From contig JALHOE010000066.1 in NCBI GenBank assembly GCA_022843175.1, positions 1 to 41,252 on the forward strand: a stretch of 41,252 nt of DNA, given 5' to 3'. Of the stretch, positions 10,241-20,893 are shown piece after piece (the stretch's first letter is position 1; each line of letters begins with the position of its first letter). Under the pieces are notes generated by a model. It was not told where the DNA came from. It was given only the letters and a program-made list of their open reading frames with translations, and made no database searches. Both the position numbers and the translations under genes were made by a program. This stretch comes from Deltaproteobacteria bacterium (GTDB lineage Bacteria; Myxococcota_A; Polyangia; Polyangiales; JADJMO01).

Positions 10241-11377
10241 CTAGACGACCGCGGTCGCGAGGTACGCGGTGCCGTCGCCGCGGAGCGTGAGCGTTGCGGC
10301 CGAGCCGGGGACGAACACGGAGTCCCCCGCGCGGAGCGGCTCGCGCGACGCGCCGTCGTCGGCCTCGAGCGAGCCCTCGGTGCACAGCGCGATGATCGGC
10401 GCGCGCACGTCGACCCGCGCCTCGCCGGAGACGCGCGCGCGCGCGAGCTCGAACTCTGCGGCGGCGGTCTCCCACACCTCGAGCGGGCCGCGACGGGTCG
10501 GCAGCACCTTGGCGACCGGGCCGGCGCGGAAGTCGAGGACGCGCATGAGCTCCTCGACGTCGACGTGCTTGGGGGTCATCCCCCCGCGGAGCACGTTGTC
10601 GGAGTTGGCCATGATCTCGACGCCCACGCCGTGCAGGTAGGCGTGGAGGTTGCCCGCCGGCAGGTAGATCGCCTCGCCCTCGGCGAGCACGACGAGGTTG
10701 AGCATGAGCGCGCCGAGCACGCCCGCGTCGCCGGGGTGCTTCTGCCCGAGGCGCGCGCCCCACTCGGCCTCGAGCGCGAACGGACCGCCCGTGAGCTTTT
10801 CGCACGCGGCGGAGACCTCGAAGACGAGCGCGGAGACGTCGGTCGTCATGATCGTGCGGAAGGTCTCTCGCAGATCGCCGAGGTCGAGGGCCTGCAGGCC
10901 GGGGACCGCGAGCGCCTCGAACAGGGCGCGCGTCGCTGCGATGTCGCGGAAGCCGCACAGCGCGACGAACGGCCCGAGCGCGCACAGGAGCTCGGGCTTG
11001 TGGTTTCGGTCGCGGTAGTTGCGGTTCGGGGCGTCGCGCGCGATGCCCGCGCGGTCCTCGCGCTCATAGCCGGCCTCGGCCTGCGCGATCGACGGATGGG
11101 CTTGCAGCGAGAGGGGCTCCTCGGCGGCGAGGATCTTGAACAGGAACGGCAGACGCGGACCGAACCGCCGGAGCGCGGCGGTGCCGAGCGCCCGCTCGGG
11201 GGCTTCGGCGATCCGAGCGAGGAGCGTGCTGCCGTGGACGCGCGAGGGCGCCGACGGGTGCGCGCCCATCCAGAGCTCGGCCTCTTTCGTGGCCGCGGGC
11301 GGGCGCCCCTGCAGCGCGGCGATCGCGGTCGTCGAGCCCCAGGCGTACGGCTGCACGGTGTTGACGAGTCGTTCCAT
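10241..11377 (-). CDS. manA: Mannose-6-phosphate isomerase, class I
   Basis: 378 residues from ATG 11377 (MERLVNTVQPYAWGS, the normal family start; the frame is open 57 bp further but the extension is not family-like). It interconverts mannose-6-phosphate and fructose-6-phosphate, feeding GDP-mannose and exopolysaccharide synthesis or mannose catabolism. Zinc-site motifs are visible in order: ELWMGAHPSAPS, LSLQAHPSIAQAEAGY and NHKPELLCAL, then YLPAGNLHAYLHG and the active-site segment DNVLRGGMTPKHVDVEEL. Convergent with the Nif3-like gene (4 bp apart) and divergent from the AMMECR1 gene. Confidence 0.93.
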   Translation of the reverse strand: MERLVNTVQPYAWGSTTAIAALQGRPPAATKEAELWMGAHPSAPSRVHGSTLLARIAEAPERALGTAALRRFGPRLPFLFKILAAEEPLSLQAHPSIAQAEAGYEREDRAGIARDAPNRNYRDRNHKPELLCALGPFVALCGFRDIAATRALFEALAVPGLQALDLGDLRETFRTIMTTDVSALVFEVSAACEKLTGGPFALEAEWGARLGQKHPGDAGVLGALMLNLVVLAEGEAIYLPAGNLHAYLHGVGVEIMANSDNVLRGGMTPKHVDVEELMRVLDFRAGPVAKVLPTRRGPLEVWETAAAEFELARARVSGEARVDVRAPIIALCTEGSLEADDGASREPLRAGDSVFVPGSAATLTLRGDGTAYLATAVV

Positions 11378-16882: not shown

Positions 16883-17920
16883 ATGTCTTTCATCCAGAAG
16901 ATCATCGATTTCTTCCTCGGTCTGTTCGGCGCCAAGAAGTCGGAGCCGGCGCAGTTGCCCGCGGGGCAGCCCGCACCGGCAGCGGCCTCGTCGTCCTCGT
17001 CGAGCGACGACGACGACGACGACGACAAACCGATCGACCGCGAGAAGTACGCGCGCGAGCAGTGGGCCGACGTGCAGAAGGGGATCGCCCGCTTCGAGGC
17101 GAGCAACCAGATGCCCGCGGGCCTCTCGTGGAACGATCCGGTCGCGTGCTGGATGAAGCTCTTCGGGGTCGAGGACTCCCAGATGAAGGGCAGGGACCAG
17201 GACAGCGCCGCGCGCGAGAACGGCTTCCGCGACTACGAGCACTACACCGACGTGCGCGACTACGTGACCTGGAAGTGGTCGGAGCTCGGCAAGAACTCCG
17301 ACGGCCAGCCCGACGTCGTCGTGAAGGACGAATACACCAACGCCATGATGAAGGCCCGCATGGGCCAGCATCAGGCCGCGCAGGCCGCCGCCGCCAACGC
17401 CGATCCGACGCTCCTCCAGCCGGAGGACGGCGTGACCGTCGAGCAGTGGGCCGGCGCGTCGGCCGCGATGGCCGGGCTCGGAAGCGGCGCCACGATGGCG
17501 CAGGTCGCCGAGCTGCTGGCGAAGTTCGGCATGGACAAGGCGAAGTGGGACAAGGCGAACGTCGCGTGGCAGGCCAAGATGCAGCGCGACACCACCGCCG
17601 TCATCGCCACCAAGTTCGGCGAAGCCTTCGCCGCGGCGCAGGGGCAGGGCGCCGGCGCCGGCGAGCCCTGCACGTTCGACAAGTTCTGCGAGGTCATGGC
17701 CGCGCAGGCGATGTGGGCCGAGTCGGGCCTCGACGTGAACGCGCAGCTGCAGGCGGTCTTCGGCATCAACGCGGCCGAGTACAGCAAGTACGCGTCCTAT
17801 TGGTCGCCCAAGATGGCGACCGACATCGCGATGGTCCGTAAGCAGCAGGAGCTCGACACCAAGTACCGCGCCAAGTACCAGGGCGCGGCGAGCACCGCCG
17901 ACGACGACCTCTCGCTCTAG
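16883..17920 (+). CDS. Uncharacterised protein with amphipathic N-terminus, Ser/Asp tract and two internal repeats
   Basis: 345 residues, ATG start with a purine-rich AAAGGGGG 9 nt upstream. Residues 1-16 (MSFIQKIIDFFLGLFG) form an amphipathic or membrane-associating helix. Then comes a Pro/Ala linker and a low-complexity tract of six Ser and seven Asp, the latter coded by seven GAC in a row (17006-17026). Residues 185-250 and 264-331 are two related units: T-x2-W/F, KFGMDKAKWDKANVAWQAKM and VFGINAAEYSKYASYWSPKM, each followed by D and a KF/KY. A degenerate earlier unit may lie around 80-135 (LSWNDPVACWMKLFGVEDSQ). I do not recognise a named family. It is followed on the same strand by two zinc-ribbon proteins and the GAF/Enzyme I-like gene. 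Confidence 0.8.
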   Translation: MSFIQKIIDFFLGLFGAKKSEPAQLPAGQPAPAAASSSSSSDDDDDDDKPIDREKYAREQWADVQKGIARFEASNQMPAGLSWNDPVACWMKLFGVEDSQMKGRDQDSAARENGFRDYEHYTDVRDYVTWKWSELGKNSDGQPDVVVKDEYTNAMMKARMGQHQAAQAAAANADPTLLQPEDGVTVEQWAGASAAMAGLGSGATMAQVAELLAKFGMDKAKWDKANVAWQAKMQRDTTAVIATKFGEAFAAAQGQGAGAGEPCTFDKFCEVMAAQAMWAESGLDVNAQLQAVFGINAAEYSKYASYWSPKMATDIAMVRKQQELDTKYRAKYQGAASTADDDLSL

Positions 17921-17932
17921 TGCGTTCCCACC

Positions 17933-17965
17933 GGAGCCGCGACCGTCCTTGGAGCCGCGACCGTC
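17933..17965 (+). repeat. Two direct copies of a 15-bp sequence between genes
   Basis: GGAGCCGCGACCGTC occurs at 17933-17947 and again at 17951-17965, an 18-bp period, in the 62-bp gap between the repeat-protein gene and the first zinc-ribbon gene. Two in-phase copies upstream of a start codon could be a regulator site or a remnant duplication; no promoter is evident. Confidence 0.6.
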
Positions 17966-17982
17966 AGGGAGCGGGTTGTTCG

Positions 17983-18528
17983 ATGTCCCAACTTCTCGAT
18001 CGCCTCCAACAAGTCCGCTCCTGGTTCGCCCACAGCATCGGCGAGGCCTTCCGCGAAGCTCTGGCGATCGCCGAGCCCGCGGGCACCTCGCCGGCGTGGT
18101 CGGCGCTCTGCCAGCGCGCCGGTGTGGAGCTCTGCTCCGACGCCGATCGCGCGCAGATCCGCGCAGGCCAGCGGCCCACCCGCGGCGCGCCGCTGATGGA
18201 GTTCCAGGGCGTCGTCACCGCGATCGTGCAGCGCGCGCGCTACGAGCTCGCGTCGCTGCGCAATCACATGAACGACACCGCAGATAAGCTCTACGGCCAG
18301 ATCTCCCGCGCGGTCGAGGAGGCCGAGGCCGACACGCTCAAGGCGTATCGCGCCGCGGTGCTCCCCAAGCGCGCGGGCGGCATGTTCGCCAACGCCACTG
18401 CGCACGCGGCGACCCAGTCGTACGCGACCGCGCCCTCCTCCACGGCGCTCACCTGTAAGAGCTGCGGCGCCCCGCAGCTCCAGGCGGGCGCTTTCGAATG
18501 CAAGTACTGCGGCAACCGAATGGTGTGA
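17983..18528 (+). CDS. Uncharacterised helical protein with C-terminal zinc ribbon
   Basis: 181 residues from ATG 17983 (MSQLLDRLQQVRSWF), preceded by AGGGAGCGGG. The body (1-125) is mainly helical with a charged stretch (RARYELASLRNHMNDTADKLYGQISRAVEEAEADTLKAY) that could be a coiled coil. After an Ala/Thr/Ser linker, the C-terminus is a CKSCGAP...CKYCGNR zinc ribbon with Cys 158, 161, 173 and 176. No catalytic motif and no membrane segment is visible. It sits 62 bp after the repeat protein and 2 bp before the next zinc-ribbon gene, so these are probably one transcription unit. No function is proposed beyond a likely protein- or nucleic-acid-binding role of the ribbon. Confidence 0.82.
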   Translation: MSQLLDRLQQVRSWFAHSIGEAFREALAIAEPAGTSPAWSALCQRAGVELCSDADRAQIRAGQRPTRGAPLMEFQGVVTAIVQRARYELASLRNHMNDTADKLYGQISRAVEEAEADTLKAYRAAVLPKRAGGMFANATAHAATQSYATAPSSTALTCKSCGAPQLQAGAFECKYCGNRMV

Positions 18529-18530
18529 TC

Positions 18531-19622
18531 ATGCTCGAGCTCCTCAGCCCGCCGATTCAAGCGAAGGCCCGCGCCGTGAAGACGAAGTGGGACGGCTTCG
18601 TCCCCAAGATCGACGCGCGCGTGCAAGAGGTGATCGCCGAAGCCGACGCCGGGCTCGACGAGCTGATCGAGCAATACGCGCTCGACCCGGGGCCGATGGG
18701 CGCCGCGTTCAGCGCGCTGCAGGTGCGGTTCCGCGGTCTCGGGCAGAAGCTCGAGGAGGCGTGGTCGAAGATCGATCACGAGCTCGACGAGGTCCGCGAA
18801 GAGGCCGACACCGGCAAGGACCACGAGGCGCTCGCCGGGCTGTGGGCGCAGATGAGCGCCACGCATCAGCAGGCCCGAGAGCGGATCGATCTCGCCTACG
18901 AGAGCGTGCAGACGCGCAAGAACGCGGCGTGGGCGCGCAACCTGTGGACGCAAGCCCAGCGCGACTCGCAGCAGCCGGTGGCCTGCGTGAAGTGCGGCGC
19001 CGGCGTGCAGCAGACGGTGTTCCATGCGTCGTCCAACGTGACCTGCACCCACTGCGGCGCGGTCAACCAGCTCCACCCCGGCATGGCCGCCGGCCTGCTC
19101 TATCAGGGCAACGGGCTCCACTCGCTCGCGCACGAGCACGCGTGGAACGAGTGGATGGCCATGAACCGCGCCGACAAGGCGTACAACGACTTCCGCGTCC
19201 CGACGACGAGCGACCGCGACGCGATGCTCGCGGCCGCGCGCGCCTATTGGACGAAGTACTACACCGCGATCGCGCAGTGGCACCCCGGCTTCGCCGAGGC
19301 GTTCGGGTCGGTCGAGAAGGCGGCCGAGGCGAAGATGGCGCACTCGACCGCGTACGATCCCCCGGTCAGCGTGCAGGAGCGCGCGCGGTTCCAGGCGGTG
19401 CTCGACGCGTCCCGCACCGGCGACCGCGCCGCCATCCAGCGCGCGGTCCAGGGCGTCGACATGGACGACGCGGTCCGCTGCGCGTTCGAGCACGGCGACG
19501 CGCGCGGTACGATGATCCTCCTCGAGCTCCAGCACCGCGCCGACGGCGAGGACGAGCCGCTCGCCAAGTGGTCGGCCGAGCAGATCGCGCGCATGGCACG
19601 CGACATGCGCGCCAAGGGCTGA
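18531..19622 (+). CDS. Uncharacterised coiled-coil/zinc-ribbon protein
   Basis: 363 residues from ATG 18531, 2 bp after the previous stop, suggesting translational coupling. Residues 20-140 are charged helices likely to form a coiled coil (VQEVIAEADAGLDELIEQY, LEEAWSKIDHELDEVREEAD). A zinc ribbon CVKCGAG...CTHCGAV follows with Cys 152, 155, 172 and 175. The C-terminal half is helical and Trp/Tyr-rich (AHEHAWNEWMAMNRADKAYNDFR, ARAYWTKYYTAIAQWHPGFAEAFG) ending in short helix pairs (IQRAVQGVDMDDAVRCAFEHGD) that resemble TPR-like hairpins. The ribbon resembles that of its neighbour, so the two may be related in architecture. No named family is recognised. Confidence 0.82.
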   Translation: MLELLSPPIQAKARAVKTKWDGFVPKIDARVQEVIAEADAGLDELIEQYALDPGPMGAAFSALQVRFRGLGQKLEEAWSKIDHELDEVREEADTGKDHEALAGLWAQMSATHQQARERIDLAYESVQTRKNAAWARNLWTQAQRDSQQPVACVKCGAGVQQTVFHASSNVTCTHCGAVNQLHPGMAAGLLYQGNGLHSLAHEHAWNEWMAMNRADKAYNDFRVPTTSDRDAMLAAARAYWTKYYTAIAQWHPGFAEAFGSVEKAAEAKMAHSTAYDPPVSVQERARFQAVLDASRTGDRAAIQRAVQGVDMDDAVRCAFEHGDARGTMILLELQHRADGEDEPLAKWSAEQIARMARDMRAKG

Positions 19623-19660
19623 AACCCGCTCGTAACCTTCGCCGGGCATGACTTCGGTCG

Positions 19661-20893
19661 ATGTCCGAGGCCATCAAGGTGCAGGTCCACGAGCGCGGCG
19701 ACCGCCGCATCGACGGGATCCTCCGCCTGATCGCCGAGGCCGGCCGGGCGCGCCCGCTGTTCGCGACGCTCCAGACGCTCGTCGCCGAGATCGCCGCGAT
19801 CACTGCGTGCGACGTGGTCAGCGTGTACCTCCGCGAGGATCCCGAGGTGCTGGTGATGCGCGCCAACGTCGGCTTTCCGCGCGAGGCGGTCGGGCGCGTG
19901 CGGCTGCGGGTCGGGCAGGGGATCACCGGCTTCGTGGCCGAGTGCCTGCGCCCGGTGAGCGTCGCCGTCGCGCCGCGCGACGAGCACTTCGCCTACGTGC
20001 CGGGGCTCGGCGAGGAGCACTTCCCGTCGTTCCTCGCGGTGCCGATCTTCGCGTCGGGCGGCGTCGAGGGCGTGCTCGTGCTGCAGCGGCGCAGCCCGGA
20101 CGCGTTCGCCTCGGCCGAGGTCGCCCTCGCGACCGCGCTCGCCACGCCCTTCGGTTACGCGATCGACCGTTCGCGCGCGCGGCTCGGCCGCAAGCCGTCG
20201 GCGCGCTCGGCGCGGCTGTCGGGGCGCGGCCTCTCGCCCGGGCACGCGCTCGGCCGCGTGGTGTTCTTGCCCACCTTCCAGGGCCTGCCGATCGGCGCCA
20301 AGGGCGACGAGGGCGAGGCGTTCGAGGGGCTCGAGCGCACGGTCAAACGCGTGCGTCGCAAGCTCTCGCTCTCGAAGTCCGACGACGCCGAGCTCGCGTC
20401 GTTGCTCCTCTTGTTTCGCGACGATCGCCTACGTCGGCTCGCGCGCGCCGAGTGTCAGCGCTTCGGCGTCGTCGAGGGGCTGCGCGCGGTCGCGGCCACC
20501 TACGCCAGCGCCTGCTACGCCGAGGCCGAGGGCGCGAGCCGCGAGTGGCGCATCGCGCGGGTGGTCGAGCTCGAGGATCTGTGCCTCCTCGCGGCGGCCT
20601 CGGCGAGCGGCAGCGCCCCGGCCTTGAAGGACAAGCTCCTCATCGTGCCCGATCGGCTCTCGACCCTCGTCGTGCTGACCGCGATCGCCCGCGGCGCCGC
20701 GGGGATCGTGGTGAGCGGCGAGGTCGACGACTCGCTCGCGGCGCGCGTGGCGCGCGCGGCTGGCCTGCCGCTCATCGCCGACGTGGTCGGCCTCTACTCC
20801 TGGATCCGCGAGGACGACCGCGCGCTGATCGACGGCACCCGCGGCGTGGTCCGCATCAACCCGCGCGTCAGCGCGGCCGCCCGCGCGCGGTAG
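19661..20893 (+). CDS. GAF-domain protein with shortened, histidine-less Enzyme I (PtsP-like) region
   Basis: 410 residues, ATG start. A GAF sensor domain (about 20-165: ITACDVVSVYLRED, GQGITGFVAECLRPVSVA, FLAVPIFASGGVEGVLVLQRR) is followed by an Enzyme I-like part. It starts at LSGRGLSPGHALGRVVFLP (EI: SPGIAIG), has a helical segment with LLLLFRDDRLRRLA (EI: hLLmLeDpel) and SREWRIARVVELEDL, and a swivel segment GAAGIVVSGEVDDSLAARVARAAGLPLIADV ending IDGTRGVVRINP. In PtsP/EI the swivel carries a G-G-x-T-S-H motif; here the matching stretch (351-366) has no His. The PEP-binding TIM barrel is missing. It therefore cannot relay phosphate like EI-Ntr and is better seen as a sensor or scaffold derived from it. 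It lies 38 bp after the zinc-ribbon gene. Confidence 0.83.
   Translation: MSEAIKVQVHERGDRRIDGILRLIAEAGRARPLFATLQTLVAEIAAITACDVVSVYLREDPEVLVMRANVGFPREAVGRVRLRVGQGITGFVAECLRPVSVAVAPRDEHFAYVPGLGEEHFPSFLAVPIFASGGVEGVLVLQRRSPDAFASAEVALATALATPFGYAIDRSRARLGRKPSARSARLSGRGLSPGHALGRVVFLPTFQGLPIGAKGDEGEAFEGLERTVKRVRRKLSLSKSDDAELASLLLLFRDDRLRRLARAECQRFGVVEGLRAVAATYASACYAEAEGASREWRIARVVELEDLCLLAAASASGSAPALKDKLLIVPDRLSTLVVLTAIARGAAGIVVSGEVDDSLAARVARAAGLPLIADVVGLYSWIREDDRALIDGTRGVVRINPRVSAAARAR

Follow-up and report, generated by a model that had tools for sequence, protein, structure and literature searches.

We analysed a window of 41,252 nucleotides (contig JALHOE010000066.1, positions 1 to 41,252) from the Deltaproteobacteria bacterium assembly GCA_022843175.1, and focused on four consecutive open reading frames (ORFs) on its plus strand. 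Gene 1 (16883-17920) encodes a 345-amino-acid DUF6620-like repeat protein, gene 2 (17983-18528) a 181-amino-acid helical protein with a C-terminal zinc ribbon, and gene 3 (18531-19622) a 363-amino-acid protein predicted to contain a three-helix rod, a zinc ribbon and a helical C-terminal part. Gene 4 (19661-20893) encodes a GAF domain and a pseudo phosphoenolpyruvate (PEP)-utiliser domain. The first-pass annotation of this DNA had described a same-strand set with gaps of 62, 2 and 38 bp between genes 1 and 2, 2 and 3, and 3 and 4, respectively, as the ORF coordinates bear out. We placed the start of gene 2 at the ATG at 17983, where Met1 aligned across 8/8 orthologues. A promoter and terminator scan was uninformative; the gap separating gene 3 from gene 4 gave no match resembling a terminator.

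Genes 1-3 are a real conserved three-gene unit, found in a group of bacteria from soil and water. Among the 56 relatives searched, gene 3 was found in 8, all of which carried genes 1, 2 and 3 adjacent and in the same order (with about 1.2 kb between genes 2 and 3 in genome G042), and it was absent from the remaining genomes. The three genes of G001, which belongs to the same genus, were adjacent and 75-85% identical to the window copies. The gene 1 profile matched five further relatives via weaker, paralogous repeat proteins, and gene 2 gave one extra weak match (E 2.8e-4). A wider profile search covered 282 genomes from the phylum, of which 34 had a repeat-profile match, and all nine with a strong match (E<1e-20) had a gene 3 match beside gene 1; apart from a few gene 3 occurrences without gene 1 (given below), the remaining gene 3 matches were weak and ribbon-only and were left out of our counts. 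The distant phylum members contributed a single 1-2-3 set plus four pairs of genes 1 and 3 (G126, G139, G233 and G308), giving 13 sets in total, nine of them with all three genes. A second gene 3 copy lay apart from genes 1 and 2 in G011 (L064:9732-10859). Downstream of gene 3 in three genomes of one genus we noted a lipoprotein-like protein of about 600 residues (L065:7501-9345, L067:7361-9202 and L068:7837-9573); the one of the three that was scanned had no Pfam match.

By contrast, gene 4 is an unrelated chance neighbour. Its homologues were found in 52 of the 56 relatives, many through the GAF domain alone, and the best match in G001 was a 38% paralogue on a separate contig. Genes 1-3 were in none of the 24 gene 4 homologue loci tested (L038-L061), gene 4 was in none of the 15 regions from relatives, which contain the other seven sets, and among the matches listed the two adjoined only in the window itself. 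As none of the other genomes examined placed gene 4 next to genes 1-3, we excluded it from the unit. The gene-neighbourhood check in Myxococcota that the first-pass annotation had proposed thus upheld the co-occurrence of genes 1-3 but removed gene 4 from the supposed four-gene set.

The repeat protein encoded by gene 1 carries two repeat copies, at residues 176-254 (17408-17644) and 257-334 (17651-17884). Alignment of the two copies with hhalign gave a score of 32.4 (E 7.8e-6), far above the maximum of 19.1 reached in 100 column shuffles, and the repeat-versus-repeat comparison with 13 sequences gave an E of 3.7e-9. The two repeats reported from the first reading are therefore genuine. A helical domain precedes them (residues 82-173; 17126-17401), and we rejected its reading as a third repeat, its profile score of 9.75 lying inside the shuffle range (maximum 15.9); with 13 sequences the score was 16.5 (E 0.009, obtained without a shuffle run), and we do not claim a third copy. 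The second repeat was missing from the gene 1 protein of G233. A low-complexity S6D7 linker, also noticed originally, occupies residues 36-48 (16988-17026); it was variable among orthologues and not present in all of them. At the same position, two homologues (L116:7495-8748 and L117:8281-10569) had a long His-rich (HGHDHGHDH) tract, which suggests metal binding by the linker.

No family in Pfam or NCBIfam scored above cut-off for the window copy of gene 1, which gave no match to DUF6620 (PF20325). Its homologues told more. Ten proteins were scored against DUF6620, namely nine homologues of gene 1 and L128, a more distant repeat protein; the gene 1 protein of G139 was the only one to pass the cut-off (41.5 versus 27 bits), with those at L065 and L116 just below it. 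Single homologues in G033 and G308 aligned to the C-terminal part of the family below cut-off. Across the 282 phylum genomes, DUF6620 matches occurred in four (two above cut-off), and 14 control genomes had none. Since homologues matched the family and the window copy did not, gene 1 probably represents a distant DUF6620 branch that Pfam does not capture. The repeat region of the homologues aligned to approximately positions 260-437 of the 450-position model, whereas the first 260 or so positions were unmatched, and an anchor helix and acidic tail are seen in the gene 1 branch; the alignments support C-terminal homology rather than full membership. The original statement that the proteins match no family accordingly holds for the window copies of genes 1-3 but not for the homologues of gene 1.

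The products of genes 2 and 3 each carry a predicted zinc ribbon whose cysteines are invariant in the aligned orthologues, in agreement with the CxxC...CxxC ribbons of the first-pass annotation. In gene 2 the motif is C158-x2-C161...C173-x2-C176 (18454-18510; eight orthologues), and in gene 3 it is C152-x2-C155...C172-x2-C175 (18984-19055; nine sequences). Beyond these nine sequences, the second knuckle of gene 3 was CxC in G126 and G308, and the ribbon was missing in G139. The knuckles of both proteins resemble those of Zn_ribbon_3 and DZR in Pfam, but all scores were under the curated cut-offs and the attached helical parts matched no family; neither Pfam nor NCBIfam gave genes 2 and 3 anything beyond a generic zinc ribbon. 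The structure model of gene 3 (mean predicted local distance difference test [pLDDT] 91.9, predicted template modelling score [pTM] 0.83) predicted three helices of about 40-50 residues forming a rod at residues 7-146 (18549-18968), then the ribbon and a helical remainder, much as first described. Structure comparison returned three-helix bundles of a generic kind (Z of at most 13.9, root-mean-square deviation 2.1, 130 aligned residues), a result close to chance for helical bundles; because the matches are three-helix bundles, the helices probably pack side by side. The C-terminal stretch of about 85 residues was limited to window-like members (4/9 aligned).

The feature that appears to connect these proteins is the C-terminal tail of gene 1. 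The window protein ends in DDDLSL (17900-17917), and 12 of 13 gene 1 homologues, including the G233 protein, ended in D-x-D-[IL]-x-[FL]-COOH. Among 443 called ORFs from 36 sources, 12 ended in the broader pattern D-x-D-[ILVM]-x-[FLYWM], every one of them gene 1. The sole exception among the homologues was G139, in which gene 1 had no tail and the adjoining gene 3 had no CxxC ribbon. In G002, a single ORF, a natural fusion, contained the gene 3 ribbon region followed by two gene 1 repeats, and it also lacked the tail. The confinement of the tail to gene 1, together with the joint loss of tail and ribbon, led us to hypothesise that the tail may dock onto the ribbon.

Further investigation revealed that ribbon partners recur across the wider repeat family. 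Of 45 repeat ORFs, 21 were followed on their own strand by a ribbon frame (C-x2-C-G...C-x2-C) no more than 2 kb downstream, as compared with 5.3% of random windows; the count becomes 22 out of 45 if a dubious match at L171 is included, where the plus-strand repeat ORF is itself likely spurious. Repeat proteins with C-terminal LGL-type helices had no ribbon neighbour among these 45 ORFs. In a separate class of repeat/ribbon pairs, the ribbon gene followed immediately and its product had a C-terminal transmembrane (TM) segment in 11/11 cases. The window genome has such a pair on C16, comprising a repeat protein (L073:9851-10774) and a zinc-ribbon protein (10771-11148) that has its TM segment at the C-terminus, and pairs of this type were found in ten other loci. 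The C-terminus of the L073 repeat protein was Tudor-like, below cut-off (Tudor_2, E 0.02; 1.7e-4 for L072). Gene-3-like ribbon proteins also lay, without gene 1, within radical S-adenosylmethionine (SAM) clusters with HxsC-like enzymes (L165:7408-8502 and L166:1088-2188); at L165, HxsD, HxsB and an aKG-HExxH hydroxylase were nearby.

The start of gene 1 suggests how the unit might reach the membrane. A hydrophobic, amphipathic stretch, MSFIQKIIDFFLGLFG, contains a predicted helix at residues 3-14 (16889-16924) that is a putative membrane anchor, and a helix or TM segment occurred at this end in most homologues. Eight gene 1 orthologues began with a short hydrophobic helix, with best 11-mer hydrophobic moments of 0.57-0.68; the gene 1 proteins of G126 and G308 began with a stretch of the MGFLDKLKGIFGG type and then a His-rich tract, and that of G233 had an N-terminal TM segment; the start of the G139 protein was ambiguous. 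Elsewhere in the repeat family we observed C-terminal hydrophobic helices such as LLKKLPIIGPLLRMLGL, or TM segments. Taken together with the TM segments of the ribbon partners, these helices suggest that tethering to the membrane recurs in more than one form. That the repeat protein attaches to the membrane, as supposed from the first reading, is plausible.

Searches for known relatives or carriers returned little. Foldseek against the PDB gave no match for genes 1 and 3 at E<=0.001, and profile searches against PDB sequences gave nothing under E 0.01. None of 984 chains compared with the gene 1 model reached a Z of 5, which does not imply a new fold. Known anti-phage defence was rejected as an identity, since none of the four proteins matched a PADLOC model at E<=0.1. 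Mobile carriage was likewise rejected: gene 1 was unmatched in plasmids and phages, and none was confirmed in viral contigs. A literature search for DUF6620 returned no paper and one on zinc-ribbon proteins in Myxococcota only an unrelated one; as far as these searches show, the three-gene unit is undescribed.

Gene 4 is of interest in its own right. Its GAF domain was well matched (E 4.5e-16), its PEP-utiliser domain fell just below cut-off, and it aligned to the first half of the PtsP-type GAF-Enzyme I model (NCBIfam PRK11061, E 8e-27). Unlike that family, it scored 93.8 bits where the cut-off is 583, had its phospho-histidine replaced and stands outside the 1-3 unit. The phosphorylatable His was missing at the expected PEP-utiliser site, placed by what we take to be the consensus motif, in the window protein and in the readable aligned homologues (22 homologue rows, less L059 and L061, read on the wrong strand or frame). 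Because the residue was missing in the homologues too, gene 4 (window 19661-20893) appears to belong to a conserved pseudo-Enzyme I family that combines a GAF domain with a PEP-utiliser domain without phospho-histidine. The predicted sensor with a catalytically dead phosphotransfer module thus fits the sequence.

Taking these results together, we propose that the unit encodes a helical-repeat scaffold that is tethered to the membrane and recruits partners with zinc ribbons, perhaps by way of its acidic tail, a reading to which we give an even chance. Gene 1 would be a peripheral inner-membrane scaffold, with its N-terminal amphipathic helix lying on the membrane (a TM segment in one distant homologue) and a flexible linker from which its DUF6620-like helical repeats reach into the cytoplasm. 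Gene 3, with its rod and ribbon, and the smaller ribbon protein of gene 2 would bind gene 1 as partners, and gene 1 would probably dock, by its free acidic C-terminus, into the part of gene 3 that bears the ribbon. Several observations weigh against this proposal. The co-loss of tail and ribbon amounts to one independent case (G139) plus one fusion, which is no statistical proof. Gene 2 was undetected in 4 of the 13 sets (the four 1-3 pairs), and gene 3 occurred without gene 1 in G011 (C48), G299 (on a short contig), G075 and G233 (C386). The gene 1 model was only moderate (pLDDT 73.8, pTM 0.59), with very low confidence at the N-terminus, where the helix was modelled with a pLDDT below 50, and the anchor was not visible in the gene 1 protein of G106 as read. 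An 18-mer shuffle test of the hydrophobic moment was significant in only 1/8 orthologues, so we base the putative anchor on recurrence rather than on the moment statistic; of the amphipathic helix in the first-pass annotation, the stretch and its 11-mer moments stand, but this test and the model do not bear it out.

We weighed this scaffold against four other explanations. The tail of gene 1 might mimic that of single-stranded DNA-binding protein (SSB) and recruit, or compete for, SSB-binding replication and repair proteins. According to PMC5872125, the C-terminal tail of SSB (SSB-Ct) is a conserved hexapeptide that mediates interactions. The SSB of the window genome itself ends in DDDIPF, and the gene 1 tail is similarly acidic with an aliphatic and then a hydrophobic C-terminal residue. 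However, gene 1 is not an SSB, the penultimate Pro of SSB-Ct never occurred in gene 1 tails, the terminal residue was Leu in 3/12, the tail tracks whether gene 3 carries a ribbon, and in the ORF comparison we noticed no DNA-metabolism gene common to the neighbourhoods, all of which leaves mimicry improbable. We consider it more improbable still that genes 2 and 3 are ribbon adaptors or carriers for peptide-modifying radical SAM chemistry, with gene 1 as a membrane-bound substrate or platform. Gene-3-like proteins in G075 and G233 do adjoin HxsC-like radical SAM genes, with HxsD and HxsB also nearby in G075, but the two are remote from gene 3 (E 1.8e-16 and 1.9e-14) and without gene 1, and the ORF comparison, in which most neighbouring ORFs were not family-searched, showed no radical SAM gene recurring next to 1-2-3 sets.

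The two remaining explanations are very unlikely. The shared strand, the 38-bp gap and the lack of a terminator-like match would suit the signalling or stress assembly under a GAF/pseudo-Enzyme I protein that was originally envisaged, but the neighbourhoods contradict it, gene 4 lying apart from genes 1-3 in the other genomes examined, even within the genus; a unit under GAF-sensor control can be discarded. Gene 1 could instead be packaged as cargo in a protein shell, with a bacterial microcompartment (BMC) encapsulation peptide formed by its N-terminal helix and linker. The short helix is indeed joined to an Ala/Pro/Ser linker, and BMC shell proteins were present in 6 of the 13 genomes with the set; they were unmatched in the other 7, including the window genome G000 (no PF00936 in a genome 95% complete), and the related G233 protein has a TM segment at the same place.

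For the biology of the group, the scaffold reading might extend to a new bacterial membrane-scaffold class in Myxococcota, although we hold this broader view only tentatively, as less likely than the local model. In such a class, a DUF6620-type platform with any of several anchors would capture ribbon clients via a free C-terminal peptide read by the ribbon protein, in three tethering layouts (through the N-terminus of the repeat protein, through its C-terminus or through the ribbon partner) and a fused form, and the class would serve an undescribed process. More immediately, three anonymous ORFs become a defined conserved unit with a specific tail-to-ribbon docking hypothesis, and the boundary of the unit is corrected to leave out the GAF protein. 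DUF6620, whose function is unassigned in Pfam, becomes linked to recurrent zinc-ribbon partners and, putatively, to membranes, which may offer a handle on DUF6620-type repeats.

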